From the NCBI GenBank assembly GCA_025677815.1, contig JAIXMP010000010.1, positions 1,364,001-1,428,000 on the forward strand: a stretch of DNA of 64,000 bases, written 5' to 3'. The stretch comes from Phascolomyces articulosus. Taxonomy: Eukaryota > Mucoromycota > Mucoromycetes > Mucorales > Lichtheimiaceae. Numbering within the stretch: position 1 is the first letter of the stretch; the number at the start of each line of letters is the position of its first letter. The translations under genes were made by a program, and so were the position numbers. The notes beneath the pieces are model-generated. The model ran no database searches. It saw nothing but the letters and a program-made list of their open reading frames with translations, and was not told where the DNA came from. Of this stretch, positions 1 to 61,024 are shown piece after piece.

Positions 1-2182
1 ATTATAGTGATTGTCGGGCTAAAACAATAAATAGAATCTTCTATATTTTACCATGATGTCTTCTCTCTTCTCGTGATATGTCTTGATTTATAACCTTTTC
101 GCTTTCTCTTCTCATTTATTTCCTATATTTGACATAACCTATGAACAGCATACAAGCAACACCAAACAAGACTATGAAATTATTCCAATTATATCCTTTT
201 TCAAATAAACCTGAGGGAATAAGGGATGTATTGCTTACCAGGTGTGATTAATGATAAAAAATATGTTTTTTTTTGTTTATCCGTTTCTTCCAGTAATGCT
301 GCTTGTATCACTATAAATACGTTATTACCGATTATTGCTATTTTGCTCATCATGTAATACAAGGTTTATTTTGCTAAGCAGCAAGAACATTTGCGAAGAA
401 AAGGAGAAAAAACGTGGAGTACAAAATAGATAACTTTAAATTATAAAAACCGTCGTTGATGACACTTTTTTATCTTTATTATATTTGTAACTTAGCAAAA
501 AAGAACTATATAGATTTTATCTTCTTCATCTATTATATATCATCACATTATAGCTGATTATAATTTTATCATATTGTCAAGCTTATTTTTGGCATTTTAT
601 TCAATAGGCTCTACTTTATCCATTCTTTGTCTTTTTTTCTTTCTTTCTTTCTTATCATCTTTTCCTTTTCCTTTCTTCTGTTTTCACTCTTTTTCATCAC
701 AATCACTATTGTATCCCCAGTAATCAAGGTGGTCATTATCACTATGTTCATTTTTTTCAGGATAACCCCCATCGACGTGACTTCTATCTAAACTTCGATT
801 ATCATTCACTACTAATGGTAACAACTTCAAAAAACATACCATCATCATTCTCGAGAGAAATAAAATAATCGGAAGCAGTCGTAATGGTAATGGTACTTTG
901 TATATAATTACTCGGACCAACGGAAAATTCCCTTTCTATAAAGGTACTAAATAACGTTATTGTACTTATTGATGGTATGACTTTTGTGATGCGTAAAAGT
1001 AGCAGGTATATTTGTAATTTCTAATGTAATCGTCGTAATCGTTGACAGGACAGCTATAAATGATAACAATATCCTGAGTTGTAGTGGTAACTGGAACAAT
1101 AGTAGTTATAGATACAGGATGACACTGAGCTGGGAGCATTACTACTGCTACTGCTAGCTGAACTTGATTCTTCCGGAAATGATGATGGACTCGAACTTGA
1201 TAGTAAAATTGATGAGCTACTGGTACTACCAAATTTAAATGTAATTATTTTTATTTACTCACTTACGTATCGGCAAGATTGCATAATGATTTTTTTTTTT
1301 GTGAAGACAACTTAACAGTTAAATAGATAATAACAACCGTGATCGGCTTCTGAGAATTTATTAGATTGTTATATTATAGGTTCATGATATGTGGTGTGTT
1401 TTAGCAGTAAATAAAATCTATTAAAGTAGTATTTTCTTCTTCGTACTATCTCTTAGTAATATCAAGTATTATGGTTCAAATATTTAAAGTTGACCATATA
1501 TAGGAGTACATGATTAATATATATTATTAATGCTTATTGACGTTTTTTTACAACAAGTGCGTGTTATGTGCTGCTTACATATATAAGCGTGTGTGAAGGA
1601 TAACAAATTTATGTGTCATTATTGTTGAGAATTATATATTATACAGTTAAATGTTATATATTCAAAAAGAAGCGTGTTTTCAGAAGGATCACATATAAAA
1701 AAATACAGGATGGTATACACAATGATAAAATATTGCCTTAATTATATTATTATCATTATTATTAATATTGTGTAGGAAAAAATAACGAAAACACAGCTAT
1801 ATCGTGGTATATTTGGACTTGAGCTATTGATCTTTTATGGATCTGCCTATATTTTTATAAAAATAGATAAGTATTTAAAGGAGAATAGCTTACATTACTG
1901 GAAGAAGTCATTTAAATTGACACTAATAACTGTACCTTGAATTTTTCTGTAATACGAGAAGCACACCCACCATCTTGTTTTTCTGTTCCCATAATGTATA
2001 TTGCATTTGTGTTGGCTATCGTTAGCAGGACACAATTGCCAGTTTCATTCATTTTGCCCCGGAAAAATGTATTCGCTGAAGGAAGTACAATGATAGAAAG
2101 AAGAAATTTAAACGTTGTATGTTTATGCTTATGGCTAATGGTATATTACTTGTTCTTTTCTTGATGTAGTAACACTGAAAGA
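1..2182. other. Gene-poor left edge
   Basis: This AT-rich stretch has no gene that I can model. Open frames here are short and biased by simple sequence. The one item of note is a Ser/Thr-rich stretch on the minus strand at about 684-1235, listed separately. The rest holds poly-T and AT runs only. Confidence 0.6.
684..1235 (-). pseudogene. Possible decayed Ser/Thr-rich (mucin-like) coding remnant
   Basis: Read on the minus strand, successive short stretches in different frames are all Ser- or Thr-rich. A serine-rich run lies at about 1235-1115, followed by a Thr/Val-rich run (it includes IVPVTTTTQDIVI) and further Thr-rich pieces to about 850. No single frame stays open and no convincing intron set joins them. 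This would fit a frameshifted cell-wall or secreted protein gene. It could equally be biased simple sequence, so the call is weak. Confidence 0.2.
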
Positions 2183-2667
2183 TCATCGGCGATTGTTATT
2201 TTCTCTCAGATCTCGATAAACAGGTGGAGGAGGACCAATTACTTCACTTCCATAGGATGGTGGTGGAAGATCCATTTCAATAGCTGTGTGAGATTCGACT
2301 GCAGTGACAATTGATGTTGGTTCTTGATTGCTGGTTGGTTGGGGGATAGTATTTTGTTCTTGTTGTTGTGTTCTTGTTGATGATGTATTGTTTTGATTTC
2401 TAAAGTTATTGACCGCGAAGGAGAAAGCTATTTCCAAATAAGAATTAAAATCAAAGTATTAATACACACATATCGTGCTTGTATTTCTCCCTTTGTTGTT
2501 TTTATTCTATTGAGTCAGCACTTACAAGCATCATTTCTACCTTGCTGCTGTCTTGATAATTGAGCAGGTTTTTTCTTTTCGTTCTCATGATAAGCCTTTA
2601 TAACATATATCACAATAGCTACAATAAAACTTATAACGGCAAGAACAATTATAATAGTAATATCCAT
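2183..2667 (-). CDS. Small single-pass membrane protein with PPxY motifs (copy 1)
   Basis: The model is two exons, complement(2183..2427, 2526..2667), giving 128 aa. The intron of 98 nt has donor GTAAGT and is phase 1. Residues 4-24 form one hydrophobic membrane segment with almost no N-terminal domain, followed by a Lys-rich cytosolic flank (EKKKP). The tail is Gln/Asn/Thr-rich and ends with PPSY (103-106) and PPVY (115-118). PPxY is the known ligand of WW domains, as in NEDD4/Rsp5 ubiquitin ligases. An adaptor role is therefore inferred, not shown. An in-frame ATG at 2730 would add 21 residues; I chose 2667 because the paralogues begin at the membrane segment. The closest relative is the copy at 25.6 kb, which shares the pattern MDLxPPxYGxE...PPPPVY. 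Confidence 0.75.
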
Positions 2668-3846
2668 AATAGATCGAATTCCTTGTAGAAAATGAAAAAG
2701 AAAGAGAAAGAAAGTGTACGATGCATTCATTTGTATGTGAAACTTTTTTTATTGGTTTGTTTTGTACTACTTTTGAACGGACTCAAATTCATTGCTGAGC
2801 ATATAAAAACGACGTTCGAAACTGGTTCAACTTTCTATGTATGACAATAAAAAAGTTTAGAATATTGGAATGTTCAAGTTTAAAATTAGCATCGAATAAG
2901 TTTATTATAGGCATGAGTTGCACATCTTTATTTTTTCTGATAATTATGAAAAAAATGGTTGTATATACTATGGTTATCTGTAAAGAAAACTATTCTCTCG
3001 AAATAAATCGAAAAAGAACTGAATTAGGATAAGTGCATAAAAGCAAACGGTAAATTTAGGGTGTTTTTTTGAGAGAAATACTTTTCATAGTTGTTTTTAT
3101 AATATGCCACCAAATAAGTAGTTACACTTGTGTACCATCTGTCAAACTGTTGAATATAGATATTTACCTATAAACATGAATTCATTGGGATGGTGAGCAA
3201 CTTTTCGATTTTCGAGATGTTTTTTTATGACAATATACTTATAGTGTTTAGTAATAATATAAATTTTTTAAATAAAATTTATTAGAAATGTTAATGATGG
3301 ATAGATTATGTCAGCAAGGATTGATATGGATATAAGTGTTATTGTTACATAGATGATGGTAAACAAAAATAGAGTATTTATATTACGTTTATTCACATGC
3401 TATCTTAGTGATAAGTTCATAAATGTATAAATAGTAGATCATACATTGAGCTATATTACACGACCATCATTGTTTCGAACAACAATTGCAGTCACTGTCA
3501 TTGGTGAATTAAATTATAGTATTCATTAAAAGTCATATAATAATTTCTATATTATTTACATATAGGTGATTACACCATTTTCCTCTAATATATATATACA
3601 TTTAAACAGTTACAATAATTAAGCATTTACACAAAAGTATTCCAGATATAGAATGCTGGTTTATGCGTTTGCATCCAAAATTTCTCTCTGGCCATTATCG
3701 TTACACAGATTGTATGATTTCAGGGATGAGGATGCTAATGTAAAAAAACAACCAAATACGTAAATATATATAGCGTGATGTGGTGTTAAAATGGAGTTGG
3801 ATTAGCTGATGATCCATACATTTTTCTGGGAATTGATATATTGTAG
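2668..3846. other. Intergenic between PPxY copies 1 and 2
   Basis: About 1.2 kb of AT-rich sequence without a supportable gene. It should hold the promoter of copy 1 and the 3' region of copy 2. No clear motif stands out. Confidence 0.6.
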
Positions 3847-4319
3847 TTATGCGATACGTATATCTCTTTGGTAGTTCTGATAAGACGGGGGTGGTGGATT
3901 ATTATCAATCGTAATAATACTTGATACCAGTTGTTCAGATGGTTCATTGTTGTTATACGAAGATAATAATGGTGATGAGGATACTACCGCCGGTTGAGGT
4001 GTTGGTAATATATTATTCTCGATCTGGACCATGGTAAAATGCTCTGGAAATACTGGTGTAGAGATTCCCATGCTTGAAGTATTATTGTTACGAGAGTCTT
4101 CTATTTGTGATTGTTAATCATGATGTTTTCATAGAGTAATTTATCGACTTGAAAAAAAAATAGAGTAACAACCAGGTGTAGGTACCTTTTTTAAGTCTTA
4201 CCATTAGTTACTCTGTTTCTTTCTTTCTTACGACAGGTACTCCAAGTCCAAAGTATAAATAAAGTTAAAAACGTAATTGAAAGAATGATTATTATCAAAA
4301 TATAATAAGGTTCCAACAT
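3847..4319 (-). CDS. Small single-pass membrane protein with PPxY motif (copy 2)
   Basis: The model is complement(3847..4100, 4202..4319), 123 aa. Exon 1 codes for a short start (MLEPYY), a membrane segment at about residues 5-26 ending in Trp-rich WTW, and a basic flank (CRKKER). The 101-nt phase-1 intron has a GTAAGA donor, and the join restores the frame as Asn-Glu-Asp. The tail carries Pro/Ser-rich sequence and a single PPSY at 110-113, close to the C-terminus. Architecture and intron position match the neighbouring copies although the tail sequence has diverged. No signal peptide is seen apart from the membrane segment, so the PPxY tail most likely faces the cytosol. Confidence 0.75.
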
Positions 4320-4865
4320 GATTTCATTAAATAATAAAACGCGAATAAAATCAACTTTTAAATATGTTTTTTTTCATATATTTATTTATATGTTTTATAT
4401 ACTCAGCCTTTATGTTTATGTAGCATGAGGCTTAGGAAGAAATGTCATCTATGATTTATATTTATTTCGGGTAAGCAGCATTTTTTTTTTGTTTTATGCA
4501 TTTTTGTTTTTAAATCATGTTACGATAAGCACCATCATCATAACATTGCATACATATAAATAAATAACGAAGTTGGTGCTTCCCCTGATGATGTCTCAAT
4601 ATTTCGCACGTTGCAGAAGCAAGGTCCAAAAATGGAAATTGACTTGGAGGATTTCGTCCTGGTTGATTTTCCGATCCAATTGAAGTTCGACAATGGTATC
4701 ATGCATGTTCTTTTATTTCGGTGGAACGAGAAGACCATGATGAGATAATTAATGAGTGTTGTCGAGAGATAAATATAAAAATTATGAGTTGTTGGTATAT
4801 CATTATATCTTGTCATTTTATCGTATTAATTAATAGTTTTTTCTTTCATCATTATTATTTGTTAT
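4320..4865. other. Intergenic between PPxY copies 2 and 3
   Basis: About 550 nt, partly less AT-rich at 4560-4740. Short frames exist there on both strands, but none has a start, splice site or similarity that I can defend. Confidence 0.5.
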
Positions 4866-5299
4866 TTATTGTTGATACTGTCGCTGGTGCTGTTGTTGCG
4901 TAATTTGTGTGTCTCGTCGGTGATCGTGGTAAGACGGAGGTGGCATTCGTGGATCAATAATATCTATAGCAACGTTATAAGATGGTGGATCAACTTGCGA
5001 CGTAGGATTTTGATTCATTGATAATTCTCGTTCCATACGCTCCTGTAATAATATCTGTCGATGTCGTTCTTGATAACGTTCAGCTGTTGTTCGTGGTCTC
5101 TCTAGAATTTTGTTTTATATAATTTTAATACGTACGTATAAAAAATTGTTATATGTTTTATTAGTAATAATTTACCATTGGATGCATTATTTTCTCGGGC
5201 TTTCTTAATATGAAAACAAACGATCAACATGGTTACAGCTGTTAATCCAATCACCAAAGCAATAATGGTAATAGCAATATCTCCCTTATCATCATCCAT
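4866..5299 (-). CDS. Small single-pass membrane protein with PPxY motifs (copy 3)
   Basis: The model is complement(4866..5101, 5176..5299), 119 aa. Exon 1 starts MDDDKGD, followed by a membrane segment at about residues 8-29 and a basic flank (HIKKARENN). The 74-nt intron is phase 1 with donor GTAAAT and acceptor CTAG. The cytosolic part is Arg/Gln/Glu-rich and probably helical (residues 43-70). It then has PPSY at 80-83 and PPSY at 96-99, and a Gln-rich end. An upstream in-frame ATG at 5395 would add a Ser/Phe-rich leader; the start at 5299 agrees with the paralogues. Confidence 0.75.
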
Positions 5300-6037
5300 T
5301 TGTCTTCTTGAAATATACGTAGAAAGAGAGAAAGAAAGAAAAAGAGAAAAAGATGTAAAAATTTCGGAGGATCTATAAGTTTCTTTTAGGATCAATTGTG
5401 TGACGGAGGTACAACAATACCAACAAAAATGTTTTGGAATTCAAAGTTGTGCTGTGTATCACGATTCCAAAGTCTCGTAATGGTATATTTTTACCATATA
5501 TAAAATAAAAAAATTATATTTTTAAACTATCAGATCAGTAGATCAATGCACATTAAAAATGTGGAATTAATGATCCTTGATTTAATAAAATTATTAAATT
5601 AATAATCTTGACAAGTTTTACTGGTTGGATCTGATTTCAAAGTGTGAGAGTCTATCATCATCATTTCTTTTTGTTTGTTTGTAGGTAAGGTGACACAAAA
5701 AAATAATACAAAAGGAGGTGTTGCCTTGTTGCCAAAGAATGTGGTATTTTATTTAAACCAACCAAACAAAAAAAATATTACCATTATTATTATTTAGATA
5801 TTTACATATGATTAGTGTCAAAAACAAAGAGAAGGATGTATGTATATATAAAATATTATATAGAGAAAAGTTGAAAAGATAAAAAACATAAAGGTATAGA
5901 GGAAATGAATGTTTTTCCAAATATAAATAATAGTAGAAAGAGAAAATATCACTGAAAACTACAGCTGGTATAAAGAAGTATTTGAATATATATATGATGT
6001 TGATAATGACGATGATGTCGATGATGATGATGAATGA
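5300..6037. other. Intergenic between PPxY copies 3 and 4
   Basis: About 740 nt of AT-rich sequence. No gene is seen; it serves as the promoter side of copy 3 and the 3' side of copy 4. Confidence 0.6.
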
Positions 6038-6509
6038 TTATCGAATTCGCGTATCAAGATGATGGTTTTTATATGCTGGTGGCGGTGGAGGAAGCAATAC
6101 ATTTCTTGTTGATTGTTCTGGATTTGTAGCATTATGTTGTTCAGAGTATGAAGGTGGAAGAGCACTTTCTTCATCGGTAGGTCGAGTCGTCAAAATTGTA
6201 TCTTCGTCATATCGATAAACAACCTGTGAATCAACAATTTGTTGCCATCGTTCCATTTGTTGACGTTGGCGTCGTTCTTGTCGTTGTCTTATTTTTTCTG
6301 TTATGATGAAACAATATAGAAATAATAATTCTGTGAGATTTACATGTATATTTTTATATGAAATAAGTAAAACGTAAGATTATCAAAAAAAATATAAATA
6401 AATTACGTTTTTTCTTCATGTCTTTGTAAGCATGAACATGGAAGCAAAGAGCGATTACAGCGAGCATAGCGACAATGATAATAGCAACAATAAGAGCTTC
6501 ATTAATCAT
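6038..6509 (-). CDS. Small single-pass membrane protein with PPxY motifs (copy 4)
   Basis: The model is complement(6038..6297, 6407..6509), 120 aa. Exon 1 encodes MINEA, a membrane segment at residues 6-24 and a His/Lys-rich flank (HAYKDMKKK). The 109-nt intron is again phase 1. Exon 2 opens with a very basic Arg/Gln helix (residues 35-52) that resembles the same region of copy 3, then PPSY (82-85) and a five-proline run with PPAY (107-110) just before the end. Copies 3 and 4 look like the closest tandem pair, sharing the basic helix plus two PPxY sites. The role is inferred as for copy 1. Confidence 0.75.
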
Positions 6510-7966: not shown

Positions 7967-8648
7967 TTAATCCAATGCATTTACATCCACTTTAGAAATT
8001 CTAAGCACTGTGTGGGTTTGCTTATGTTCAATTGTACGCTTATAGTTCTTTCTTCTCTTCTTTTTGACAATTTGGATCAATTTGCTTTTAGGATGTTCAA
8101 TGACGGTGGCTGTGATATCATAAAAACCTTCATTGACATAGGGTTGACCCTTGACGGTATAATCCTTGCTACCAAGTTCACGTACTCGATCCAATTTTAG
8201 TACGTCTCCAACCTTGACGTCCTTTAATCGGTTTACAATAACTTGGTCGTTCTTTGTAATAAGGAACGGGCGACCTGCAATTTCTGCGATCGCGTAATAT
8301 CGTAATTGATTTCGTAATTTGGTTATCAAGTCTTTGGTCGTGGCATCAGTTTGGACATTTCGAACAAAGTCTAATAAAATCATATCATATGTTTTCATTA
8401 GTCATTTTTCTTAAAAACAACCAGTTAATGAAAGGAAGAGGTGTTGTGTCAGACAATAACAAAAATAATAATACGTTACTCTTTGTCGGCATGGCCACTA
8501 TAAATAAACAAAAGAAAGATAAATGGAATAATTTAGTATAATTGCTATTTGTTGTTCTTAAATATATATATATATTCAGAATAATAAAATTACCTCGCGT
8601 AGCAAGGGACTGGATGGCCCCCACACCCTTCATTGCCGTCAAGAACAT
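7967..8648 (-). CDS. mrpl21: Mitochondrial large-subunit ribosomal protein bL21m
   Basis: The model is complement(7967..8370, 8480..8497, 8594..8648), 158 aa. It is a component of the mitochondrial 50S subunit. The first ~25 residues are basic and free of acidic residues, as expected of a presequence. The L21 fold covers about residues 40-150, with the AEIAGRPFLITKNDQ strand, the VKVGDVLKLDRV segment and the very basic KKKRRKNYKRT stretch that binds rRNA. Exon 2 is only 18 nt. The intron before exon 3 uses donor GTAACG and acceptor TTATTAG, and has a good branch site (TGACTAATG) 25-35 nt upstream. An alternative start inside the last exon region would lose the presequence. The identification is firm; the exact joints of the micro-exon are less so. 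Confidence 0.85.
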
Positions 8649-11670: not shown

Positions 11671-13166
11671 CTAAGCTGAACCTGCAACAAAGATGGCTGG
11701 AAGACCATCAGTTATAGTAAATGTAATACTACCACCAGAAACAGTAACTTGACTACCGCTGATGGCATCTGTCAAAGCAGTATTATCATCAATATTGGCA
11801 CCCACGCTAACGGTCACTTGGTTGCTTGCACCACTACCATAGTTATTAAGCACGACCAAAGCATTACCGTGCAGGAAGGCATATGTATTGTCACCGACAT
11901 CAACATCCATAACTACTGTCTTGCCACTCTTTTGTCTAATCTTGCCATTGACAGTAGCAATAAACTTGTAAAGGTCGCTATCTGTGGAATAACCAGAAGT
12001 CCACAACACTTCTCGATTGGCTGGATCGGCACCACCTGAATAACCTTGTTCAGTACCATAATAAACAACAGGAATCCCTTCTGCCAGAAGCACGAGAGCA
12101 AGTGCGTTCTTAAGTTGGCTCACATCACTGTTGGCATTTAAGAAACGAACCACATCATGGTTATCGACAAAGTTAGTAAGGACGCTCACATCCTTGAAGG
12201 AATTACGGTTGGCACTCAATTGGTTTGCTAAGCGACTCATAGAACCACCTGACTTGAATGTTTCGGAAATGGCATAATACAGTGGGAAGTTGAGAAGTGA
12301 GTCAAGTTGTTCTTGGTAAGACCCAACATAGGCTTGATCACCATGGAAAACTCTATACAAATGAAGTAATATCTCTGGTTATTTTCAAATTTTCTTCCTT
12401 TATACATTTGCTTGTTTTTTAATACATACTCTCCAGTAGCAAATACACCACCAGCGGCTTGATAAGGGCCCCAGAAATCTTTACGAACATGCTTGACTGT
12501 ATCAATACGAATACCATCAAAACCGTAGGTAGTAATCCAGTTGGAAAGAATATCGTGTAGTTGGCTGACAATACTATCATTTTCAGTATTGACATCAGGC
12601 AACACATCAGCGACCCAACACTGCTCGATTGAATCTTGATCATCATAATCAATGGAGCACTGAGTATGGTAGTCATCAGCGGAATCAAAAGTGTAACCGG
12701 AATAATCACCATTGCTAGTAGGACCCGAGTGATTTGGCACGACATCCAACATGACATACATGTCACGCTCATGAGCAGCTGCCACAAGTGCTTTCAAGTC
12801 ATCGGCTGAACCAAAATTTTCATTGATTGCGCTGAAATCGGTACCCCAGTAACCATGATAGCCACCAGGACTATTGGCAGGAATAGGAGAGATCCAAATT
12901 GCATCAAAACCCATGCCAGAGATATAATCCAATTGTGAAACAACACCTTGAAAGGTACCACCACAGTAGTCGGATAAACTGCCACAATCACCACCAGAAG
13001 AATCACCTTTAGAAAATCTATCAGTCAAAATTTGGTAAATGGAGCGATCTCTCCAATCATCAGCACCAGCACGTTTAACAATAGTCTTGTTTTCAAGGGG
13101 TCTAGCCAAAGCACTAGCACTGATGGCTGCCAAAAGGATGGATTGGGTAATAGTAGTAAATTTCAT
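11671..13166 (-). CDS. Secreted GH13 alpha-amylase
   Basis: The model is complement(11671..12352, 12430..13166), 472 aa. It is an endo-acting alpha-1,4-glucan hydrolase of the fungal Taka-amylase type that digests starch outside the cell. A signal peptide covers about residues 1-21 (cut near ALA), and a KR pair at 31-32 could be a Kex2 site. The (beta/alpha)8 core shows region I DVVPNH (141-146), the nucleophile Asp222 in GIRIDTVKH, the acid/base Glu246 in ATGEV, and Asp312 in FVDNHD. A C-terminal beta domain ends in FVAGSA, and there is no starch-binding module. Length matches the family. The single 77-nt intron splits the Glu246 codon (GA|A). All catalytic residues are present, so the gene looks intact. 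Confidence 0.93.
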
Positions 13167-16388: not shown

Positions 16389-18167
16389 CTATTTTGCAAC
16401 ACCAATAATTGCCTTCTTTCTTTCTGGTATCCGTTTCTCCTCTGCGTATTTCTTGCTATGTTTACGTCTATTTTCATCCTTTCTCTTTTCGGAGGATAAG
16501 ATAGTCTTCTTCATTCTATCAGCACGTCTCACATCACCAGGTAAAGGACGGTGACGATCAATCTTTCGAATTTCATCCATATGCTTGAATCGTTCCTTGA
16601 GGGATGCCGCATATGCAAGGTGATGACGTTCTCGCCAATCCTTGACACCCAATTTTTCAGAAGCGTTAGCCTTCCACAAACGAATATTACCATCGTCTGA
16701 TCCGGAAAGAACAAATTTACTATCCATACTGAATTGTACTGAAAAGATTCTATAATTATCCAGAATAGGTTAGTTATTCCGCTCTGTGAAGTGGATTGTC
16801 CCTTTCCCCACAAGAATAAAAATTCACACACATGGTTATATAGCACATCTACCAAAAATAAAGGATAAGGCTCTTTTTCGGGCCCATGACGTTACCTTTG
16901 CATTCGTTTTGTGTGGTACACATCTCGACTATGTCCTTGATTGATGTTGTATAAACGTAATGTTCGATCATAAGAACCAGTAACAATTTCTTGACCTGTT
17001 GGTGCAAAATCAACATCCATACTATAGAGACAACCCAAATCCATAACGTTTACCTTTAATAACTGAATGATATTTTACTTTTTTCCCTTCCATATACTTT
17101 CGTTCCGTTCTTTGTCAACTTACACTGCTGAAACATGATCCTTAAACACATTATGAGCACTTTCCATATTTCGCATATCAAAGAGATAGGTATTATGATC
17201 TTCATTAGCAGCAGCAAATGTAAATGCTTCGATTGGATTCCATGCAATAGCATTGGTACGCATAGCCATGACGACCTTGGAAATAGGTTGACTTGTTCTT
17301 AAATCATACAAGACAATAGTACGATCTGTACCGGTGCTTGCCAAAATATTGGTTTCCACTTGATTGAATTTAACGCTTTGATATGAATCGGCACCCCATT
17401 CGAATTCATGGATAGGTTCAGATCGAGATTCATCCCATACATCTACTGAATTGCCTGCTGTTGCGAAAAGTGGATCCTTGCGATGATGTGACAAACTCAT
17501 AAATGCATATTTGCCAACATAGGTATGAATAGGATCAGATCCACTGTTTGTATCCCAAATCTTGACAGTTTTATCTTGTGAACAAGATAAGAAGCGTGAA
17601 GTATCCGTAGCACCAGCACACACGCCCTGAACAATACCGTTATGTGCATTGGCACTCCATGTTGTTCTTTGATCTGAAATATCCCATACTCGAATTTCTA
17701 TAAGGTGAACATTTAAGTAAAAAAAAACCGTTAATATTGTGGCTTGCTACTTTAAATTATTGAAACATAAAGAATCCATCCATCATAGAATGAGAAATGG
17801 AATATATAGAGAAAAAAAAAACTTACCACCATCGCCACTACCCGAGATCATGCTAGCTAATCGAGTAGGATGTTTTGCCATGGAATAAACGCCATCGATA
17901 TGTCCATTAAGTGCTCCAACAAAAGGTTTGGCAAACATTCGTTCTAATTTAACAGTGTTCAAGGCACGAACATATTCTCGACCCTGTTCAAATGGATGGA
18001 TCGTTGGGTTCAAGTTGCGTTGTACTTTATGAAGATCTTGAGATCGTTCACGAACATAGTCATTGGATGATCGTGAAAGTGCTTTTACTTTCTATAAAAA
18101 ATAATCGAGTTTAATAAATTGGATTTTGGAACGAAATCACACTGGCGATCTAAATATGCTTTACCAT
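16389..18167 (-). CDS. sof1: Sof1/DCAF13 WD40 protein, U3 snoRNP-associated rRNA processing factor
   Basis: The model is complement(16389..16749, 16896..17021, 17124..17697, 17827..18091, 18165..18167), 442 aa. The first coding exon is just the ATG. Splicing gives MKVKALSRSSNDYVRERSQD, which is the expected Sof1 N-terminus. WD repeats follow between about residues 60 and 345 (for example SGSGDGGEIRVWD, SCSQDKTVKIWD, TASYDRT-like TGSYDRTLRLYN, SGSDDGNIRLWK). The Sof1 C-terminal domain ends the protein, with the RADRMKKTILSSEKRKDENR basic stretch. In the nucleolus Sof1 belongs to the small-subunit processome needed for 18S rRNA maturation. All exon joints are in phase. Confidence 0.92.
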
Positions 18168-26088: not shown

Positions 26089-27222
26089 ATTATTTCAATT
26101 ATTATAGGATATGCTGTGTTAAGAGGAATAAAACGATTCTGTATAGCGAATAAATATAAGACAAGAAGTAGGAAAAAGAAAAAAGATAAATAAAAAGTGA
26201 AAGAGAGAAAGAAAAGAAAGGTTCTTATTTCTTGACAATGCTTTTTTTGTACAACATCAATAACGGAAAAACTTCTTTGTAACTTTTTTTTACTGGCTAT
26301 TGTAAAGTTTTACTGGTTTCTCTTCAGCTGAGCATAATAGCCACATGGAAAAAAAATGCAAATACGGAAAGAAAACGTGGAGTATACTTGGATAATTTAT
26401 ACTAGTGTGCTAAGGTTTTCCTTGTACCAAGAATGCTTAGTCTTTCTTATCAAAAGATATAGAAGATTCTATTGCCATACCATCACTATTAAAAGAACAG
26501 CAAATTCATACAATGGGATTCCAGAAATAGTAGCATTTCTCTTTGTATATATTACAAATTCTATACACTTATGGTTTTGAATCTGAGTTGTACGTTCAGG
26601 TGTTGCGATCAAATACAGGGTTTTTTTATGCCAAGAACAAAAATAATGCAACCACAAACAATAGAAAAAAGTATAAAACGAAGTATGTTTTTATTTATCC
26701 TATTTACTTTGTATTTTTTTTACCTGCCGATCTACTTACCAAGAACAACGCGATTCCATTTTTTCACCCTTTAATAAGACCTTTGGGTTCATAGAATCGA
26801 TCTTTTTAATCAGAAATAATCTTTATTTTTCTTCTGTGAGGTAGATTATGGATATATATATGACTAATATGAATATTGCATCATCAATCCCAATTTGATG
26901 TTTTCTTTCAATATATCCATCTAACAAGTCAGACCTACAAAGATAAAAGATGAAAAAAAAAAAAAATAGTGAAGAAAAAATCCCGGAAGAACAGTAGTTT
27001 CCGGATGACTCTAAGTTCTCAATTAGGGTTTTTTACCGAGCTTTAAAAATCGGTTGAACGATGGACCGATGATCGGTTGACGTGACTACAAACAGCAAAA
27101 AAAAAAGCTATACTTTGTTGCACGCTCCCCCAATTTTATTTTTTATTTTTATTTTTTTCCTCTTTTCGCGCTTTTCTTTCTTACTTGTATACATTAATAT
27201 ATATCAGTTTGAAAAATAAAAA
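26089..27222. other. Intergenic, copy 5 promoter side and LETM1 promoter
   Basis: Two overlapping frames at 26356-26794 (+) are not supported. A TTAGGGTTT motif at 27023-27031, about 200 nt upstream of the LETM1 start, equals the telo-box seen in some fungal promoters; its use here is only a guess. Confidence 0.5.
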
Positions 27223-49279: not shown

Positions 49280-49967
49280 TTAAAACTTAAAGTTGTTGGT
49301 CATTCTATGCCATAATTGTTGATACAAAGTACCATACGTGGCAAGGTTTAAATCCGCTACTGCTCTAATACGTAAACCCAAAGCGAGTAATTCTCGATCT
49401 AAGGGCATCAGGGTATTATGATTAAAGTCATGATATTGTAATTGGCCTTGTGAAACGCGTCTCAACACATGAAACACCCGGTCATGCATCATTTGATAGA
49501 TTTCCGACGAGGTATTCAGGTGTCGTTTCAACCATGTCACCCATTTTTCTGGATCATCCAACAACAATCCCTTCTTACAATGATTCTTTAAAGAAGAAGA
49601 GTGATATTTTGTTGTTCTTCTTGCATGGGTTGTCATGGCCGCTTCACATGCATGTATGGCAAATGGATAATAAAAGGAAGAAGTGATGGTGGAAGACGTG
49701 GCGTTGTTGGAGGAAGAAGAAGATGGGTGTTGAAATGTAATGCTGATGCCTGTACGTTTTAATCGTTGTGCTAGTTTAAGTTTTAATGTTTGAAGATCTG
49801 TCTTGTTCCACCATGGACCAACTAAATAGTAATAGGGTATGAGGAGAATGGCTAAAGTTGTAATGTAGATAAACTCAGTACGGAATTGATGGACAAGACG
49901 GTGTTGATCATATTGTAATGTATATGGAAAAGGTGCGTAATCCATTGTAATTAATCGAATCATGGCT

Positions 49968-50010
<43 letters not shown>

Positions 50011-51622
50011 CAAGGTAAAAATGAGTACATCCTATCTATTGCAAGGGGAGGTCACAGAATTTTGGATTGTTACCAGTATGATAGACGCGAAGAAAAGTCC
50101 AATCGGGATGATCTTGTGAATGCGATAACCATTCTTCAATTAGATACCATTGGTGATCGTCTTTTATTTGTTGTTGAAATTGTTGGTGTTCAAATTGTGC
50201 ACATGTTTGAACTAAATAATTACGGTGTTCTCGCAAAAACCTGTTGGCTTGATCCTATACGTAAATTATTCTCTTCCTATTAGAATCATCTTTTTTTTTA
50301 TCCACAATAAATAAAATAGAAAGGATAATTACCAATTGAATTGCTTCTAAAACAGCAAAGCATTGTCGAAATGCTTTAGCATAACATTTTTGTTCAAAAT
50401 AAAGCACCAGCAATTGAATCCGTGGTATATGTTCTGGAGGACACATGGGTTGAAGGACTGAAACTATAAATTGCACTTTATCACCTAGATCCAAAGTATG
50501 ATGAACCAATTCACGTAAAATCAGGTCCGGATTCAACATACTTCGAACGGTATCCATGGTAATATGACGTGGCCAAACATGTTGATGTTTATGAAGGGGA
50601 GGATGTGTGGTCATTGTTCCTCGACGACTTATTGTGGTAGATGAAAAACCATGGGTTGTGATTTCTTTGGATGAACGATACAATAAAGCAAGACTTTCGA
50701 TGACTTGATCCAATAAGACGGGTAAAAAAGCATCATAATGAATTTCATGTTGAAAGGCTCGATCCAAACGGGTCCAATACCGTTCTGCTTTTCGCTGTTT
50801 CGCCCTTCCTGAAGCACCATCAAAGTTGGGGCGAAAACGTAAATTGCGATCAAATAATAAATCGTGCCGTAGTTGAATATTGTTCATGATTTGGTCCAAG
50901 GCTAACTCTTGAAGGGTTTCAGCGGTAATAGGGGGTGTCCATGCATTTTGTAATACCATGGGTCGGCCATCTTCCCCTCTCTCTTCCAATTCCACATGAT
51001 CATCATAAGGAGATTCTTTCTTCTTCTCACTATAACAACAACAAGAACAACAATGTGTTGTGGTTGTATTCTTTTTGCTAGTACTATTACTACTACTAGC
51101 CATTGTCTCTTTTTCTACGCCATGATGACGATGTCTAGGTGACGCGGATGAGAATAATGAATGTGATTGTAAAAGAGCAATGTCATTCTTGTTATTATTA
51201 TTATCTCTGATACTACTATTACTTGATCTGGTATGATTCGTACTATCATCATCGTCGTAATGTTCGATAAAATGAAGATGATGAAGACTTCGTCGACGCG
51301 TTTTATATCGACGTCGTTGTTGTTGTTGATGGTGATGTATGGTGGTGACGGGTGATGTTGGAGACGACAAAGATGCTGATGATGATCGTGAATCCATGCT
51401 AGGTCGTCGACGTAAACTATTATTACGTGTCAAAACACGATGTTGCTGTGTGATGCGGACCCAACAAAATCGATTTCGACAAGTGCCTTCCTTCTTTCTA
51501 ATTTGATGGGGTCGTCTGAGTTGCTGTTGATCTGGGGGTATCACCGTGGATGTGGTACAGCTATGCCATGATTTTTTCCAATGACTACATGATAAATCAT
51601 TTAGGCATTTGCGTTGTAGCAT
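49280..51622 (-). CDS. sok1: Sok1/TCP11 family protein
   Basis: Three exons, complement(49280..49965, 50074..50254, 50333..51622), 718 aa. The N-terminal 220 residues are disordered and Ser/Asn/His-rich, with LRRRPS at 70-75, which fits a protein kinase A site, and a Cys cluster at 191-196. The TCP11 domain begins near residue 226 (NAWTPPITAETLQELAL, LRHDLLFDRNLRFRPN) and runs to the end, including MLNPDLILRELVHHTLDLGD and MDYAPFPYTL. Yeast Sok1 rescues loss of PKA, and mammalian TCP11 acts in cAMP signalling; a role in PKA-linked growth control is inferred. The last intron contains an AT run of about 37 nt. The start at 51622 is the first Met past an upstream Phe-rich artefact; an extra 5' exon cannot be excluded. 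Confidence 0.85.
49970..50006. repeat. AT microsatellite in a Sok1-like intron
   Basis: About 18 AT units sit next to the acceptor site of the last intron. Confidence 0.75.
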
Positions 51623-54600
51623 CCTGGTGGTTTTAGAAAAAAGGGAGGGAGAGGGAAAGAGAAAGAAAGAAAGAGAGAGAGAGGTTGAAAAAAATATGAA
51701 AGAGACAAAAAAAGTGAAAGGGTGTTCAACCGAGGCCCATGCTATTATTATTTTTAAGCTTGGCAAACACTAACTTCCTAATATTTTCATTAAGACGGGA
51801 AAATGACTACGGTTTGTCTCTTTTTTGACCCTCAATCAAAAATTTTGTCTTTGATATAGGATTTAGAAAGGGGGTATGTCTTGTCCAAATGATTTATAAA
51901 TATATAATATATAATATATTATTATTAAAGTGTGTGCGTGTGTGAGATGGGGTGGCAAAAAAAAATCACTGTTTATTACCCCTGGACGGAAAATTTCTTG
52001 TGAGTGACTATAATCCATACTATAAATCGAATACATAACCGAATCAGATAAAGTGAAAGGGTTAAAAATCCAATGGAAACCTGCCAACAGGGTTCCATAA
52101 TTAGATAAACCAAACCAATAATGCGATCCGAGACTCTGGCACTCCTCTTCCTCACAACTTTAGGTAGAAAATTTGTTTGCATGGTGACTTTTAAAGATAG
52201 CCTATTTGACATGAATAGAACACACTTGAAGCTTTTTTATTCTTCTTTTTTTTTTATATAAATGGAAAGCAATTATTCTGTCACAATGCGATTTCTCTAT
52301 ATGTCTAAATAAAGTAAAATCGTCGAAATATATTATTAATACATATATCAATAGTTTTATGAATAGTATAATCAATCCACCACACCATGTATTCATATCT
52401 ACATGAACCAAATATGGACTTACTGTTTTATGCACGCAAATATCTGCTTTTTGTGGTTACCTTGCTATATTAGTAATTTTTTGTATTATATAGAACTATA
52501 AATAATTTATCATGCGTCGTTGCATCGCAGGAAAATACAATGGGTTCCGGCTATGCATTTAACAAACAAGCAAGAAAACAACAGGTAAAAATGAAACACG
52601 TTAAATTTTTAATGTAAATTTTATCGCTCCAAAATACGTGTACTTTCTCACGAAATGGTGGATGATTCCATTACATAGTAGGCTAATTTTTTTTAGGACA
52701 CAATGAATAAGAAGATCAATCACTACTTCTTTATCTCATTTCTAATAGGATGTAGTACAATTCATCATCCTAATAGTTACTTTCTCATGAAGTATATATA
52801 TAAAGCACTTCTCTTTAATACATTATGGATTACACAACTCCTTGAAATATAGCCCCAATTGATTATCTGTTTCATCTTTTGAGTTGACATACAATAGAAG
52901 AGGACGCGGGTTTTGGTGTTTTCTAGTGGTGAGCCCTGTCTCCATTCATTTCTCCGTCCTACCCTGTTTGCGTCTGTTCTTGAGCAATACTCTCCAAATG
53001 AAGGATTACTGATGGATAGAGTCATTTGCAATATAATTGTACTTCCATTGTGTTTACTTTCAAGCAATTTTTTCCACCTGCCAACTTTGTTGGCACCCAA
53101 TTCAATTAAGAAAACGATAAAAAAACATACTTGATAAAAGATGATGTACTATTTAAAAATGGTGTGTCTTTTTTTTCAGGTCCTTCCATTTTATATACTT
53201 TCGTTGTTTCATATATATATTTTTTCAGTAAACTACATCATCGTTTCTTTATTATCATAAACATCATCATAAAAACCCATTGTTTTTAACCGTTCCCATT
53301 TTCCAGAATGGCTTCCGAACGCACGGACCATACCCATCTTTTTCTCCTTTATATAATTAATCTGACGTTTGATTATTTGATCATGAAAGAACAGACTTTA
53401 TTAACAATAATAGACAGTGTCACGTATATTTTTCCTCTTCCGTTGTGTTAGATCCTTTATCCTTTTTCAAAATAATAAAATAATATTGATACATATTTCA
53501 TTGGCTTTGTGGAATTTGGTTAATTTTAGATTAGAATAAAAGATAAAACGGACGATATAAATCCTTTGAGACTTTTTTATAGGTTTTTTAATGGGAAGAA
53601 AGATTTGAATAAAAGTTTAATTACTTTTCTACAATTACATTTACAATGGCTTATTTATACTTTTTCTATTCTATGAAAGATATGGGCTTAGTTACTTATT
53701 TTATACTATTCTATATTATGGATGGATGAATCGGGACCTTTGGGATATGATAATTATTATCATTTATGAGGGTAGCTATAAGGATAGGTCTAATGCTGCG
53801 CCTTTTATCTTTGACATCTTTGACGTTTTCTTTTTAGAGAGTTATATGAAGGTAGTACATCGTTATGCGACTATACTAATTTCCTTTTCTAAACAAGGGT
53901 TATTTAAGTTTCCTTATTTGTATATGTGCGCAGACTGTGCCTTTTGTGTAATATCGGTATTTATTATAGAGTATAGTGTCAGAATACGACAGGCTTTATG
54001 CACTAATATTGTCTCCATTTTGAACCAACATGGACAATAGAATCATATGCTTATCTTTAATAGTTCTACGTATATTGTTGTAAATAAATCTCAAAACATC
54101 GACAGGAATATGAATAATAAATCAACAATGGTATTAAATCAGTGACTTATATACCAATTAACTTTCAGATTTATATCTACTTGTACCGTTGATTACATTC
54201 ATGAAAGAATAGCAACAGTCCACCAGAGAAAAAATGAGAAAACGTGCCGATTGAAGCACACTTGATGCCATTATAAAGTAAATCAGCGTACCAAAACTTA
54301 TAAATTATGTGTCGCCTTCTACAGACACATTATCCACATTATTCACGATACTAAATTCATTATTATTAGGTTACATAATAAATGGTTAATAAAGAATAAA
54401 GGTTGCTTCAATTAAAAATATCCTATACCTAACGATACATCAGTATATAATGCTGTAAAGAAGATTTTGTGTTTATCACATAACATTTATGCGTCCGGAC
54501 GGGATATCTTTAAATATAAAATTAAATGTGTTATTTATCAGCTACTATTGTTGTTTAATATTAGCATAATACTTAGAGTAACAAAAAAATCTTATTATAG

Positions 54601-55943: not shown

Positions 55944-57779
55944 TTACTTTTTCAAGTTTTGTTCTCTTATAAAGATCCATTCTAATTCCAATACTTCCCG
56001 CCACATGGTACTTTGTTTTCCAAATGTATACAAAATAGCTTCCTTGGCAAGTAAAATCCATCTTCTCACACCACGTTCCTGGAACGTTTCCAGCTTGCCA
56101 CCTTGAATTTCATTTTGAATGATAGAATTCCAGGCTGATTTAGCAAGTAAAAGTAAATGTTGGGCCAACATGGGATGATAAGGCGGATAAATGATTGAAT
56201 ATTGAACCAAGACATACATGCCCAGTTTAGTAGCAGCACGCCAATTCCCTTCCATCATGGTATCCACAAACAATTTGGTACACGCAGACAAAGTGGTGAT
56301 GCGAAAAGGAATGATTTCTGCGGGTGGGTATGTCGAGACTTGATCAATGGCAGCACCAAGAATATCATGATAGGAATCCGAAGCAGCTGAATCAGGTAAA
56401 GCAGCATGTCTGGGTGGATCATCAAAGGCAGTCAGCTGTTTCAGTATCGTCCCGGTCGCGGAGCTGTTTGCCGAGTTGGAATGATGAGTAGGTGAGCGTG
56501 TACCAACGAATTGTATGGCTGGGTTACTGGCAGACCAGAGGTAGGGCGTGAGAAAAGGAAGTAGAAAATGAACATAGTATTGTAAGGATAAGGGTTTGGA
56601 TCGATCAGGAATTGTTCCATTGGTTCGATTGTATGTTTTTGTCATGACAGGTAAATCCCATTCTTCTTCCACCAATTGCATGATATGTTTGCTGATATCA
56701 TCTTGTTTGGTAGGATCTCCATGGTGTCCATTCAAAAGTCTTTCTGCACGATCCCAATCTGATTCTTCCTCCCCCAGCATACCGTCGATCCTGCCAATCA
56801 CATTATCATCCCTACATCGCTCACATGTACATTGGAAAAAGTATTTATCACGTAATGTCTTTTGTCGTGCTGTTCGACTATGAGCAATATCCACATAAGC
56901 AATCGTAATTTCTTCGTCAGGTTGAATATTGTCGATCGCTTTGATCACGAGTAAGGCACCATCAAATAAAACCGCTGCATTGGGTCGACACGAATGGTTG
57001 AACAATGAAGCAACAGGATAAGTACCTTCACCCATAGTAAATAATTGTTCATCATAAATAGCAAAATTGTTACACTTGAATCGTCCCAAGAATTGGATCA
57101 ATTGTTTTTCTTGTAATGGTGTATCGACGAGATAAGATTTTTCTTTGGCTGTCTTGGCAACAGATGCATAATGATCCAATAAATAATGAGGATGATTATC
57201 CAAATGATCCATCAAGGAAGCAAATGCTTCCATGGTCACTTGTACTGTTTCTTCATCATTTGGTTCCATTCCTTGTTGTTGTTCACCATTGACCTGTTGA
57301 CGCTTCATAAAACGTGATACATTCAAAGCAACACGTTCTGTCATTTCTAAATCCAAAGTAGAATCATCCTCTTCTTCGTCGTCGTTTATCTTGTTATTAC
57401 TTTCATCATCGTCATGGTGATGATGGTTATTGGGGGTTGCGGGTTGACATACAAATTGATGATAACTTAACCAAGCATTTTTGAAACATGCCATATCGCA
57501 AAAATAAGCGGATTTACAACGTGAACAACGTTGCAAAGGTGTGGTTTGGTTATAAGTGGTGGCGGTGGACCCCAATTTTCGAAAACAATAGTTACAAAAT
57601 TCATGACGATTGGCTTTTAAGGGGACCGTACCTAATGGTTGTGATGTGGTCACAATGGCACCTCGTTCCAATGGTGCTGTAGCAACCACACTTTTTCCTT
57701 TATCTTTATCTTGAACAAGTGCTAAATGATAACTTGCAAGGTATTTTTCTAGTGATGCGATCGTTGTAGGTGCTGTCAT
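55944..57779 (-). CDS. SET and MYND domain (SMYD-like) protein
   Basis: A single exon of 611 aa. The MYND zinc finger sits inside the split SET domain: C62, C65, C85, C88, C94, C98, H107 and C111 are all present. An acidic, His/Asp-rich linker (118-142) follows. The SET core has NHSCRPN (261-267) for S-adenosylmethionine binding and ITIAYVD (291-297) with the catalytic-site Tyr. The post-SET motif is CTCERC (317-322). The C-terminal 250 residues are helical, as in SMYD proteins. It probably methylates lysines of histones or other proteins. The in-frame ATG at 57848 would add a Phe/Leu-rich leader that disagrees with a cytosolic or nuclear enzyme, so I chose 57779. It is intronless, unlike nearly all its neighbours. 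Confidence 0.88.
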   Translation of the reverse strand: MTAPTTIASLEKYLASYHLALVQDKDKGKSVVATAPLERGAIVTTSQPLGTVPLKANRHEFCNYCFRKLGSTATTYNQTTPLQRCSRCKSAYFCDMACFKNAWLSYHQFVCQPATPNNHHHHDDDESNNKINDDEEEDDSTLDLEMTERVALNVSRFMKRQQVNGEQQQGMEPNDEETVQVTMEAFASLMDHLDNHPHYLLDHYASVAKTAKEKSYLVDTPLQEKQLIQFLGRFKCNNFAIYDEQLFTMGEGTYPVASLFNHSCRPNAAVLFDGALLVIKAIDNIQPDEEITIAYVDIAHSRTARQKTLRDKYFFQCTCERCRDDNVIGRIDGMLGEEESDWDRAERLLNGHHGDPTKQDDISKHIMQLVEEEWDLPVMTKTYNRTNGTIPDRSKPLSLQYYVHFLLPFLTPYLWSASNPAIQFVGTRSPTHHSNSANSSATGTILKQLTAFDDPPRHAALPDSAASDSYHDILGAAIDQVSTYPPAEIIPFRITTLSACTKLFVDTMMEGNWRAATKLGMYVLVQYSIIYPPYHPMLAQHLLLLAKSAWNSIIQNEIQGGKLETFQERGVRRWILLAKEAILYTFGKQSTMWREVLELEWIFIREQNLKK

Positions 57780-59156
57780 GTTTTTATGTTGTGTGCTGGA
57801 GAGAGAGTAAAAAAAAAAAAGAAAAAGAAAAAAAAGGTACGAACGCAAACGGAATAGATTTTCCCTTTAAAGCTTGTTTGACCCAGAAAAAAAATGACAG
57901 TCGCACAGTTTGAGTGGACAGAGGTTTTTTTATAATGGAAAGAATATAAGGTTAAGTAAACAGCTTTATTAAAAAACACTCTGTAAAACCCATCTCTAAG
58001 ATTCATAATAATTCACACACTCCAAACGGTGGATTACTCTATTAGGAAACTATAAAGTAAACCCAGTCAATTTTATTTAAATGAACCAGAAGAGAAAATG
58101 ATATTTTGAATGACATAAAAAAACCCAAGGATTTTAGATAGATAAGGCCACTGTTATAAGGTTATAGATGAAGCATGATAATGACGATATTGGATACTGT
58201 TACAAGGGCCCTGAATATAATAATTCATTGTGTAATAATTAAATGTCCATATAATACTTGAAACAAAAAGTCATATTGGTGATGACAAAGCAACTTATAC
58301 TCCACAAAAAGAGTCTTTTCCTTCTCTTCCCCACACACAATGTATTATTATTTTTATGTTTCAATCCAAACATTGACTTCGTCGTCATTGTCGTATTTTT
58401 AAACCAGAAAAATTTTATATTGACATGTGCTTTTTTTATTTGTTAAAAAGTTTGGTGTGAAACTTTTCCACTTTATAAAAGGAGGGCTCTTGTCTACTTC
58501 TTACGTAGATGATTTTAAAAACGTTTATAGACTCCGAATCCATTTTCCTTGTTGAGATACACCAGAATCTATTTTTGATGGGACCTGTTGATATATCTAT
58601 ATATAATCCACTTTGATCTCCCCTTTGAAATCAACTCATAAAATAGTAACAATAGTAGTTAGTAGTAGTAAAATGACATATATATAAGAAGGGTCCATTA
58701 TAGCCTTACGAATAAAATGAATGAGTCTATATATTATCTAATAATATATATCAAATAATAAAAGTTGGTTAATTATAAGTATTACACAAGAAAAAGGTAT
58801 TTAACTCAGTTTATATACAATATATTACAAAAAGAGGTTGTTTGTGTGATTCTATTATGATTATAACGCGTGGTTGTAATGACTGGTTGCACTGTTTAAT
58901 CCAATTTACCATAGAAAGCCAAGAATTGATTGCTGCTATCCACCGTTGTTCCCTCCCCTTCTTCTTTGTTTCTCTCTCTCTCTCTCTCTCTATTTTTTTC
59001 CCCTTTCCCTTCTTTTTTACTCTTTTTTTTCACTTACTCTTACTCTTCTCCTATTTTTCTTTTATAAACTCCAATCCTTCTAATATATCTTCCAAATAAA
59101 ACTTTTTTTTTCTCTCTCTCTCACTCTCACTTTGTTATAAAAATATTTCAATATTG
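57780..59156. other. Divergent intergenic region
   Basis: About 1.4 kb between the SMYD-like gene and the type I membrane protein gene, with their promoters. CT-rich tracts at 58970-59050 and 59101-59125 precede the rightward start codon. No gene is seen. Confidence 0.6.
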
Positions 59157-61024
59157 ATGAAGTCTCAGCCGTTCATTGTCGGCTTGTTTTTTTATTATTT
59201 CATTACCATTATAAATGCGACCACTGTCGATTCCTTATTAGTGAAGCGTCAAGGTATATACATGCTCTTTTTTGGGATTCAATCATGAACCCACCACCCC
59301 TTTCTCGTGTATACCCAATGAATGTTTCCAGTTTATTAAAAAAAATAAAAACTATGATTTGTTTAGTGGTCGCTTCTGCTGCATGTGCACGTTTAGAAAA
59401 TACGCAAGGAATTTGTTCACCTTCTTCTACTTCTGAATGGTATAATGGGACATTCCAAGAACTAACGTGGAAGTACAAGTAAGGTTTCACTAAAAAACTT
59501 TTGGGAGTCCCAAAATAAAAAATAAAAAAAAATAAAAAAAACTCAACTAACTTATTTTTAAACATTTGATCTCCAAATTTGTTTCTAAAGTAACCCACAG
59601 TATATGAGAGGCGATGTAAGTCATTTGTTTATAATGAATGACCCTTGAAAACAATAGGTTTTAATAAGTATTTTTGTAATAATATGTAAATAGGGTACGG
59701 TCAATGTTCATTTACTTTATATGATCGATAATGAATATACGAGTATCAAAAATTGGACAAATCAACCATTATCACCCGGTACGATTGTTGAACAAATTGA
59801 CGATTCTTGGTTCCCATCTTTACTTCCCGATAACAGCCCCAATAAAACTTGGGAACCATATATTTATGTTCTTACTGATGGTCATGATTATCGAGAAGAA
59901 ATCGCATACGATTATAATTTCCCAGCACCTGTTCAATTTAAATTGATTCGTACGTTTTTTTTTCTCATGATTATATTTTACTTAAGGAGTTTCTTCTTCA
60001 CTGTGGGAAATCCTATATGTATATATATATGTATTATACATATATATAAAAAGAAGAGCCTTTCTCTTTTTCTCTGTTTTTTAAGGGGAGAAGAAAAAAA
60101 GTACAAGGGGACCAATTTGTTCATTATCAACAGGACTAAAAAAACAAAACTATTGACAAAACTACCATTAATCTCATTCATTTATTTCATTTGTTTATTT
60201 ATTTATTAGAAAACGCACATAATGCATCATCAGCATCCAATCCAAACAATGGCGACACAACGGGTGCAGCAGATACGAGTGAATCATCGAGTGGATTAAA
60301 AGGATGGATGATTGCCGTTATTGTCATAGCGTGTGTTCTATTTGTAGCAGCACTTGGTGCCCTATTTTGGTTATTCCGCCGATTACGACGAAACAAAGCA
60401 GCTGCTGCAGCAGCTACGGCTGGTGGAGCCATGGGTGAAACGAGTGATCAACGAAATCTTATTCAAGGTAAAGATGGTACATATACTTCTCAAATGAGTA
60501 GTACACCTTCAGCAGCAGCCATTGCACGACCTTTTGCAGGATCTGTCACCAATACATCTTCTGTAGGGGGTGGTGAACGAAACGATATTTCTTCCATTCA
60601 TTCTTCAACACCTATTGTTCATCATGGTGGTTCGCAACGTGCTCCTACGACCGCTTCTATGCCACAATCACCTTCTTCTCCGCGAAGTATGACGGATCAA
60701 TATAATTATGATAAGGTCTCACCTCCTCCCGCTGTCGCCCAAATTATGCAACAACAAGAAGCACGACAATCCAGTTCAATTTTGAGTGCAACAGATGCTG
60801 TCATGATTGCGGATACATTTAGACAATTTATGCGTAAACCCGAATGGAATGAACATCATGATGATGAAGAAGATGAGGATGGTACAGGTGCAGGTGGTAC
60901 ATTTAAATCTTCTCAAGCTTTTTCAGCAAATGATGAACATAAATCAACATCATCACCGCAAACATCGGACGGTGCTGGTAGTCATAATATATCAACATCG
61001 AATAAACCAGATGGAGGAGTATGA
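59157..61024 (+). CDS. Type I membrane protein with DUF7137-like ectodomain
   Basis: Exons are 59157..59253, 59367..59478, 59591..59615, 59694..59949 and 60210..61024, giving 434 aa. A signal peptide covers about residues 1-21. The ectodomain (about 22-190) has two Cys, Asn-glycosylation sequons (for example NGT and NKT) and strands such as VNVHLLYMIDNEY, DSWFPSLLP and PYIYVLTDG. A Ser/Gly-rich stalk leads to a membrane segment at 196-218 and an RRLRRNK stop-transfer. The cytosolic part is Ser/Thr/Pro-rich with PPPAVAQIMQQQ and a block SATDAVMIADTFRQFMRKPEW that looks conserved. Exon 3 is 25 nt; using the acceptor at 59590 rather than 59600 avoids a stop and restores phase. The ectodomain resembles fungal DUF7137 proteins, from memory only. 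A cell-wall or surface sensor is possible. Confidence 0.72.

Follow-up and report, generated by a model that had tools for sequence, protein, structure and literature searches.

The 64,000-nucleotide stretch of DNA analysed here (the window) covers positions 1364001-1428000 of contig C2 (1,511,846 bases) in the 47.4-Mb, 110-contig genome of the fungus Phascolomyces articulosus (Mucorales, Lichtheimiaceae). Its minus strand carries five genes for small single-helix membrane proteins with PPxY motifs; four of these, A, B, C and D, are neighbours, and the fifth, E, lies near 25.6 kb. An earlier note on this DNA had proposed such a set, four adjacent minus-strand genes and one at 25.6 kb of a single design, and all five could be rebuilt at those places. 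The family size of five that it implied holds within the window but understates the extent, as members F to J, a degenerate copy and a probable further copy fall wholly or partly outside it. Ten members were modelled, nine of them on C2 and all nine on its minus strand. The genes are as follows, with positions counted within the window unless a contig is named.

6509-6038, minus strand: gene A, 120 codons; exon 1 6509-6407, phase-1 intron 6406-6298, exon 2 6297-6038; membrane window at residues 5-23; PPSY from 6157 and PPAY from 6082
5299-4866, minus strand: gene B, 119 codons; exon 1 5299-5176, phase-1 intron 5175-5102, exon 2 5101-4866; two PPSY, from 4988 and 4940
4319-3847, minus strand: gene C, 123 codons; exon 1 4319-4202, phase-1 intron 4201-4101 (donor provisional), exon 2 4100-3847; one PPSY, from 3891
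2667-2183, minus strand: gene D, 128 codons; exon 1 2667-2526, phase-1 intron 2525-2428, exon 2 2427-2183; PPSY from 2263 and PPVY from 2227
26088-25629, minus strand: gene E, 121 codons; exon 1 26088-25944, phase-1 intron 25943-25850, exon 2 25849-25629; PPAY, PPVY and PPVY from 25757, 25721 and 25703
1..205, minus strand: right-hand portion of a probable degenerate copy, which extends some 150 bp beyond the left window edge (read by eye)
C2:1362436-1361930, minus strand: member F, just left of the window (architecture scan)
C2:1360568-1360011, minus strand: member G, just left of the window (architecture scan)
C2:1288751-1288308, minus strand: member H (architecture scan)
About C2:1121794-1121325, minus strand: member I, A-like (single-protein search of the own genome)
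C13:1298786-1299441: member J (single-protein search of the own genome)
C39:116081-116730: probable further copy related to J, to which it is 79-80% identical, with one stop flagged within the exon-2 match

Read from the right, the array runs A, B, C, D, the degenerate copy, a plus-strand frame, F and G. The degenerate copy has a membrane-like segment with an in-frame stop soon after it and a phase-1-like donor, and beyond the window edge it continues into an exon-2-like tail with PPVY. The plus-strand frame, left of the window, looks to the eye like a mitochondrial ribosomal S21 protein, and a ribosomal protein L21 match occupies 7967-8398 (minus strand), directly right of the array. Weaker matches to the family occur elsewhere in the genome (e.g. 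on C100, C68 and C78).

All five window proteins show the minimal N-terminus, single helix, basic flank and tail with one to three PPxY motifs that had been attributed to them. In A to E, 3-9 N-terminal residues are followed by one strong membrane helix, whose best 19-residue window starts at residue 4-10 and has a mean Kyte-Doolittle hydropathy of 2.7-3.4, and then by a basic flank, with a net charge of +2 to +6 over the 15 residues past that window. In all ten modelled members (98-186 residues) a single hydrophobic helix lies close to the N-terminus and the tail is polar. Their post-helix flank is positive in every case, and the N-terminus is neutral or negative in nine (J has +1), a charge pattern expected for a cytosolic tail. 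PPxY motifs number two in A, two in B, one in C, two in D and three in E; in these, as in all ten members, every motif falls within exon 2. When tail letters were shuffled, the protein's own PPxY count was matched in between 0 of 20,000 shuffles (E, H) and 3.5% (C). The PPxY DNA pattern proved too loose for a search of the whole genome (886 matches vs 727 for the reversed pattern). An AlphaFold model of B, built from eight aligned sequences (mean pLDDT 70.7, pTM 0.31), places a long helix across the membrane part and a second helix at residues 47-72, with confidence of 50-58 over the motif region; it was not used as evidence of fold. Separately, a 238-residue plus-strand frame near 60308 also opens with a membrane helix and a basic flank, and carries no PPxY.

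The shared intron phase claimed for the five window genes is borne out, with the exact sites of A and C resting on choice. The introns of A to E are 74-109 nt long, bounded by GT and AG and in phase 1 in all five, and reading through them meets a stop in all five; phase 1 likewise recurs in all ten modelled members. Ten agreeing phases would arise by chance at about 5e-5, but the sites were picked among candidates: an automatic scan gave 2-26 models per gene, and for A, C and H it ranked other sites first, also in phase 1. The site taken for A is the one that aligns with its relatives P0003 and P0007, the donor of H comes from the deposited protein P0008 (also phase 1), that of J was chosen from three models, and the site of C is our own provisional choice. 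The deposited protein P0006 equals B over all 119 residues and P0001 is identical to F, while P0012 shares with D the exon 1/2 junction and the tail and has a different N-terminus. Word-based protein searches returned no deposited Phascolomyces counterpart for A, C, E, G, I or J; what they did return covers four members (B, F and H, and D with a different start), and these deposited proteins are annotation rather than RNA evidence, the introns given here being predicted. A chance origin of the architecture is rejected by dinucleotide-preserving shuffles. Across 174 kb of C2, scanned on both strands with 20 such shuffles and the opposite strand as controls, a loose definition found nine loci, all on the minus strand and none on the plus, of which one overlies the degenerate copy, against a single match in the 20 shuffles together; a strict definition found eight loci against none.

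Searches of 5.8 billion proteins (E up to 0.01-0.1) returned 12 proteins: four from Phascolomyces (P0001, P0006, P0008, P0012), three from Circinella (P0002 of C. umbellata, P0003 and P0010 of C. minor), one from Fennellomyces (P0007) and four ENA proteins (P0004, P0005, P0009, P0011). Named relatives thus come from Circinella and Fennellomyces only. Within the reach of these searches, and with ten members modelled, the earlier suggestion of a lineage-specific expanded set stands, its relatives lying in one fungal family; absence elsewhere is weak evidence, because the method needs exact shared words of five residues. P0003, P0004, P0009 and P0007 are of A type; P0002 has three PPxY, as does E; and P0010 and P0011 are weak matches (E 0.0026 and 0.01), yet can be aligned with B. 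For gene C, neither an orthologue nor a deposited counterpart was returned by the word-based searches. In C. minor, INT45_004748 (A type) and INT45_004750 (B type) are each on a contig of 459,674 bases, and P0009 (A type) and P0011 (B type) each come from a contig of 2,515 bases. Each pair likely sits on one and the same contig, and if so the A-B gene pair is conserved.

A tree built without P0009 and without the deposited versions of B, D, F and H splits into two clades, {D, E, F, G, J} and {A, B, C, H, I}; of its 14 inner branches, four have good support and eight stay open. In it C. umbellata joins E, C. minor joins both A and B, and Fennellomyces joins A, which places the split of at least the A, B and E lineages before that of these genera. 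A profile comparison of the two clades gave a probability of 97.4 and an E-value of 1.5e-11 over 42 columns at 14% identity, covering helix and basic flank only, a region in which hydrophobicity inflates such scores. Common descent of the clades is supported by the shared intron phase and tail design, and all ten genes look like one family. Retention of PPxY in related species had been named beforehand as a point on which the proposal could fail, and on this point it holds. In seven orthologue pairs (A with four relatives, B with two, E with one), the P, P and Y positions are kept in 45 of 45 cases, and other aligned positions are identical in 330 of 538; the count is limited to A, B and E because clear orthologues were found for those only. 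By the NG86 method, A and I differ by 0.31 nonsynonymous (dN) and 0.86 synonymous (dS) substitutions per site, and four further pairs have dS of 1.0-1.4 and dN of 0.5-0.8.

A feature new in this analysis is that the distal tails, taken from 20 residues past the membrane window onward, are nearly free of lysine yet retain arginine. In the ten members these tails hold four lysines and 57 arginines among 872 residues, and seven of the ten have no lysine at all. The 20 juxtamembrane residues, by comparison, hold 34 lysines and 27 arginines (Fisher 3e-9 against the distal tails), with lysine present there in every member. As a further control, 29 disorder-like stretches (2030 residues) were chosen mechanically from unannotated frames of at least 150 residues in the same 174 kb; they hold 65 lysines and 102 arginines (Fisher against the tails 5.5e-7 for lysine vs arginine and 8.2e-7 for lysine vs the rest), p-values that are indicative only, since the tails, being related, do not count as independent and the control frames lack annotation. 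Tails of A type carry one lysine directly after the last motif (PPxYK), in A, in I and in four relatives. Lysine deserts that retain arginine are described as prevalent among disordered proteins of the ubiquitin system (PMC10169902; this and the other PMC papers are cited from excerpts).

A candidate partner is encoded in the same genome. On contig C1, three WW matches (C1:693394-694206) are followed by a HECT match (C1:694751-695746), giving a ligase of the Rsp5/NEDD4 type; three WW domains ahead of a HECT domain is the Rsp5 arrangement. Compared with solved structures, one of the three WW domains matches ITCH, NEDD4L, WWP1 and RSP5 (entries 3olm and 4lcd, E 4.8e-16); it also matches the WW domains of YAP and MAGI, which are not ligases. 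Two features of the membrane PPxY adaptor class are therefore present: a WW-HECT ligase in the same genome and, for A, B and E, conservation of PPxY between species in the part predicted to be cytosolic.

Also new in this analysis is an upstream element, which perhaps makes the family partly co-regulated. It is represented in the window by two sites:

2761..2800, minus strand: element of gene D, GCTCAGCA-N25-GTACAAA, 94-133 bp ahead of the ATG
26327..26333, minus strand: GCTCAGC site upstream of gene E; GTACAAA is also present, much farther off

The shorter pattern TGCTCAGC, on either strand, occurs at most 400 bp upstream in six of the ten members (D, E, F, G, I, J). The 174 kb contain nine GCTSAGC sites; five of them lie no more than 400 bp upstream of a member (one each for D, E and F, two for G), and four lie elsewhere. 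Genome-wide, GCTSAGCA-N20-30-GTACAAA has eight matches against three for a reversed-pattern control, and four of the eight precede members D, F, G and I, at 90-153 bp from the ATG and with spacers of 25, 25, 28 and 25. Counts and p-values for the element are descriptive, the pattern having been derived and counted on the same genes. In D, F and G it may stem from shared ancestry of neighbouring upstream regions; I, which also bears it, belongs to the other clade and is 240 kb away. We also observed a 17-base block, GCTCAGCAATAAGAACA, common to the upstream regions of I (L046) and G (L013), two members from different clades that are separated by 240 kb.

The sequence itself yields the predicted gene structures, the extent of the family, the conservation of its motifs, the depletion of lysine in the tails, the upstream element and the presence of the ligase gene. 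They make it fairly probable, in our judgement, that the genes encode a family, restricted to this lineage, of minimal single-pass adaptors serving the Rsp5/NEDD4-type ligase of the fungus itself. From them we infer splicing, topology, binding, adaptor action, cargo and co-regulation, in the following form. The tiny N-terminus would lie on the lumenal or outer side, the single helix would act as anchor, and the basic flank would hold the tail in the cytosol. The flexible tail, almost without lysine, would use its one to three PPxY motifs close to the end to bind the WW domains of the ligase, bringing it to the membrane and helping to relieve its autoinhibition. The recruited ligase would then ubiquitylate neighbouring membrane cargo, with the helix or the juxtamembrane part of the adaptor as the probable point of contact. 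The scarcity of lysine in the reachable tail would serve to spare the adaptor from ubiquitylation, and several copies with a common upstream element may be switched on together.

Precedents for membrane adaptors of this kind in yeast are Bsd2, Tre1/2, Ear1, Ssh4 and possibly Rcr1/2 (PMC2810449). Against Pfam, every match of A to E, RCR included, was below cut-off. With wider alignments (11 and 7 rows), the first row passed no cut-off, and among the families listed for the other rows (the best 25 of 49 and the best 25 of 45) the best E-value was 3.4e-4. Rcr1/Rcr2 are close in build, being short membrane proteins with one helix and a cytosolic PY tail, a layout shared by all ten members as far as topology is predicted; they differ in that the Phascolomyces family has ten modelled copies, several in tandem. 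RCR (PF12273) membership is rejected: of the five, E alone was listed, and its 10.1 bits (E-value 1.4) fall short of the cut-off of 27.8. None of the five RCR matches in the genome reaches the cut-off, and frames of at least 60 residues at two of these loci, L036 and L037, contain no PPxY. L037 (C49, around 16.5-17.4 kb) has near-identical repeated blocks, whose long poly-I, poly-N and poly-K frames are the probable source of its weak RCR matches. We regard the Phascolomyces family as apparently analogous to Rcr1/2; homology by profile is below cut-off, and the two may be remote homologues.

Other known families offer further comparisons. Sna3 has two membrane helices and Bsd2 and NDFIP proteins have three, against one in the Phascolomyces family; the Bsd2/NDFIP layout was rejected on reading the letters of the modelled members, with their one hydrophobic helix. 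Otherwise Sna3 resembles them as a yeast membrane protein with a C-terminal PPAY that binds Rsp5 (PMC2171029), and Bsd2 and NDFIP1-2 as membrane PPxY adaptors of NEDD4-family ligases (Bsd2: PMC2810449). Ear1 and Ssh4 are likewise Rsp5 membrane adaptors but have SPRY domains (PMC2810449), and no SPRY family was listed for A to E. Nor was an arrestin domain, and members of 98-186 residues with one helix were not assigned to the alpha-arrestins (ART). B has a weak match to WBP-1 (PF11669) across helix and PPxY tail (E 0.0028), at 18.7 bits short of the cut-off of 28.1, and A reaches 14.3 bits against 27 for Commissureless (PF15957); neither membership was accepted. Drosophila Commissureless and vertebrate PRRG4 are described as substrate adapters of a Nedd4 pathway (PMC12101832), as the Phascolomyces proteins would be for their own ligase; they are animal rather than fungal proteins, and PRRG proteins have a Gla domain.

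Several points weigh against adaptor function. No cargo-binding domain is visible, and the earlier suggestion of a different cargo for each copy stays conjectural. C has a single PPxY, and the second-motif position of J lacks tyrosine. PPxY binds other WW proteins too, and of the 20 WW matches listed in the genome three are in the ligase gene. Lysine depletion would also fit a protein simply shielded from turnover, with the tails being related. The upstream element is missing ahead of A, B, C and H.

The alternative that survives best, although we think it rather unlikely, is that the proteins are cargo: as with Sna3, PPxY would bind Rsp5, ubiquitylation would fall on juxtamembrane lysines and lead to sorting to the vacuole, and the real job would lie elsewhere. 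Sna3 binds Rsp5 by PPAY and, in order to be sorted itself, receives ubiquitin on one lysine (PMC2171029), and juxtamembrane lysines are indeed found in all ten members; but the tail is lysine-depleted, diverged paralogues retain the motif, and beyond helix and flank the proteins offer hardly anything except the PPxY tail that could perform another job. Less credible still is a role as decoys or regulators, with the WW-HECT ligase titrated or tethered at membranes and no cargo presented. Short proteins in many copies, mostly with several PPxY on a nearly lysine-free tail, would suit that role, and WW-HECT ligases are described as being freed from inhibition when a PY motif binds (PMC5892558, PMC12720080); the keeping apart of at least the A, B and E lineages across genera, however, suggests more than bulk titration. 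That the tails recruit other partners, either a non-HECT WW protein or proline binders of SH3, EVH1 or profilin type, seems quite improbable: 17 of the 20 WW matches listed fall outside the ligase gene and several tails have runs of four to six prolines, yet tyrosine and PPxY spacing are conserved along with the prolines.

If the adaptor reading is right, a more specific version of it can be offered, tentatively and with considerable doubt. The Lichtheimiaceae would possess a switchable set of at least ten minimal Rsp5 recruiters, with a fixed ligase-binding end, a lysine-desert tail, a helix and juxtamembrane part diverged for each cargo and an upstream element for a subset, and tandem duplication would thereby have produced a transmembrane counterpart of the ARTs.

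Elsewhere in the window, all on the minus strand, lie the following genes or gene pieces:

11671-13166: alpha-amylase (PF00128 in two overlapping frames, and domain C, PF09260), probably one spliced gene
17120-17623: piece of a WD40-repeat protein
49280-51766: Tcp11-domain matches in two neighbouring frames
55944-57848: SET and MYND-finger matches in a single open frame of 634 codons

In the open-licence PMC literature, we found no paper joining Mucoromycota with PPxY or Lichtheimiaceae with Rsp5, and none on Phascolomyces articulosus; among the matches listed, none was seen joining Mucorales with PPxY or Rsp5. Such families may often go unnoticed: their genes are short and contain predicted introns, and here the searches brought up deposited proteins for only four members of ten. 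How fungi choose membrane proteins for removal through PY-motif adaptors of Rsp5 is known largely from yeast. A separate Mucorales family built of a helix and a PPxY tail, if true, would probe the least that an adaptor needs and how cargo choice evolves, and its lysine-poor tails would provide a testable design rule for adaptors that escape their own ligase.

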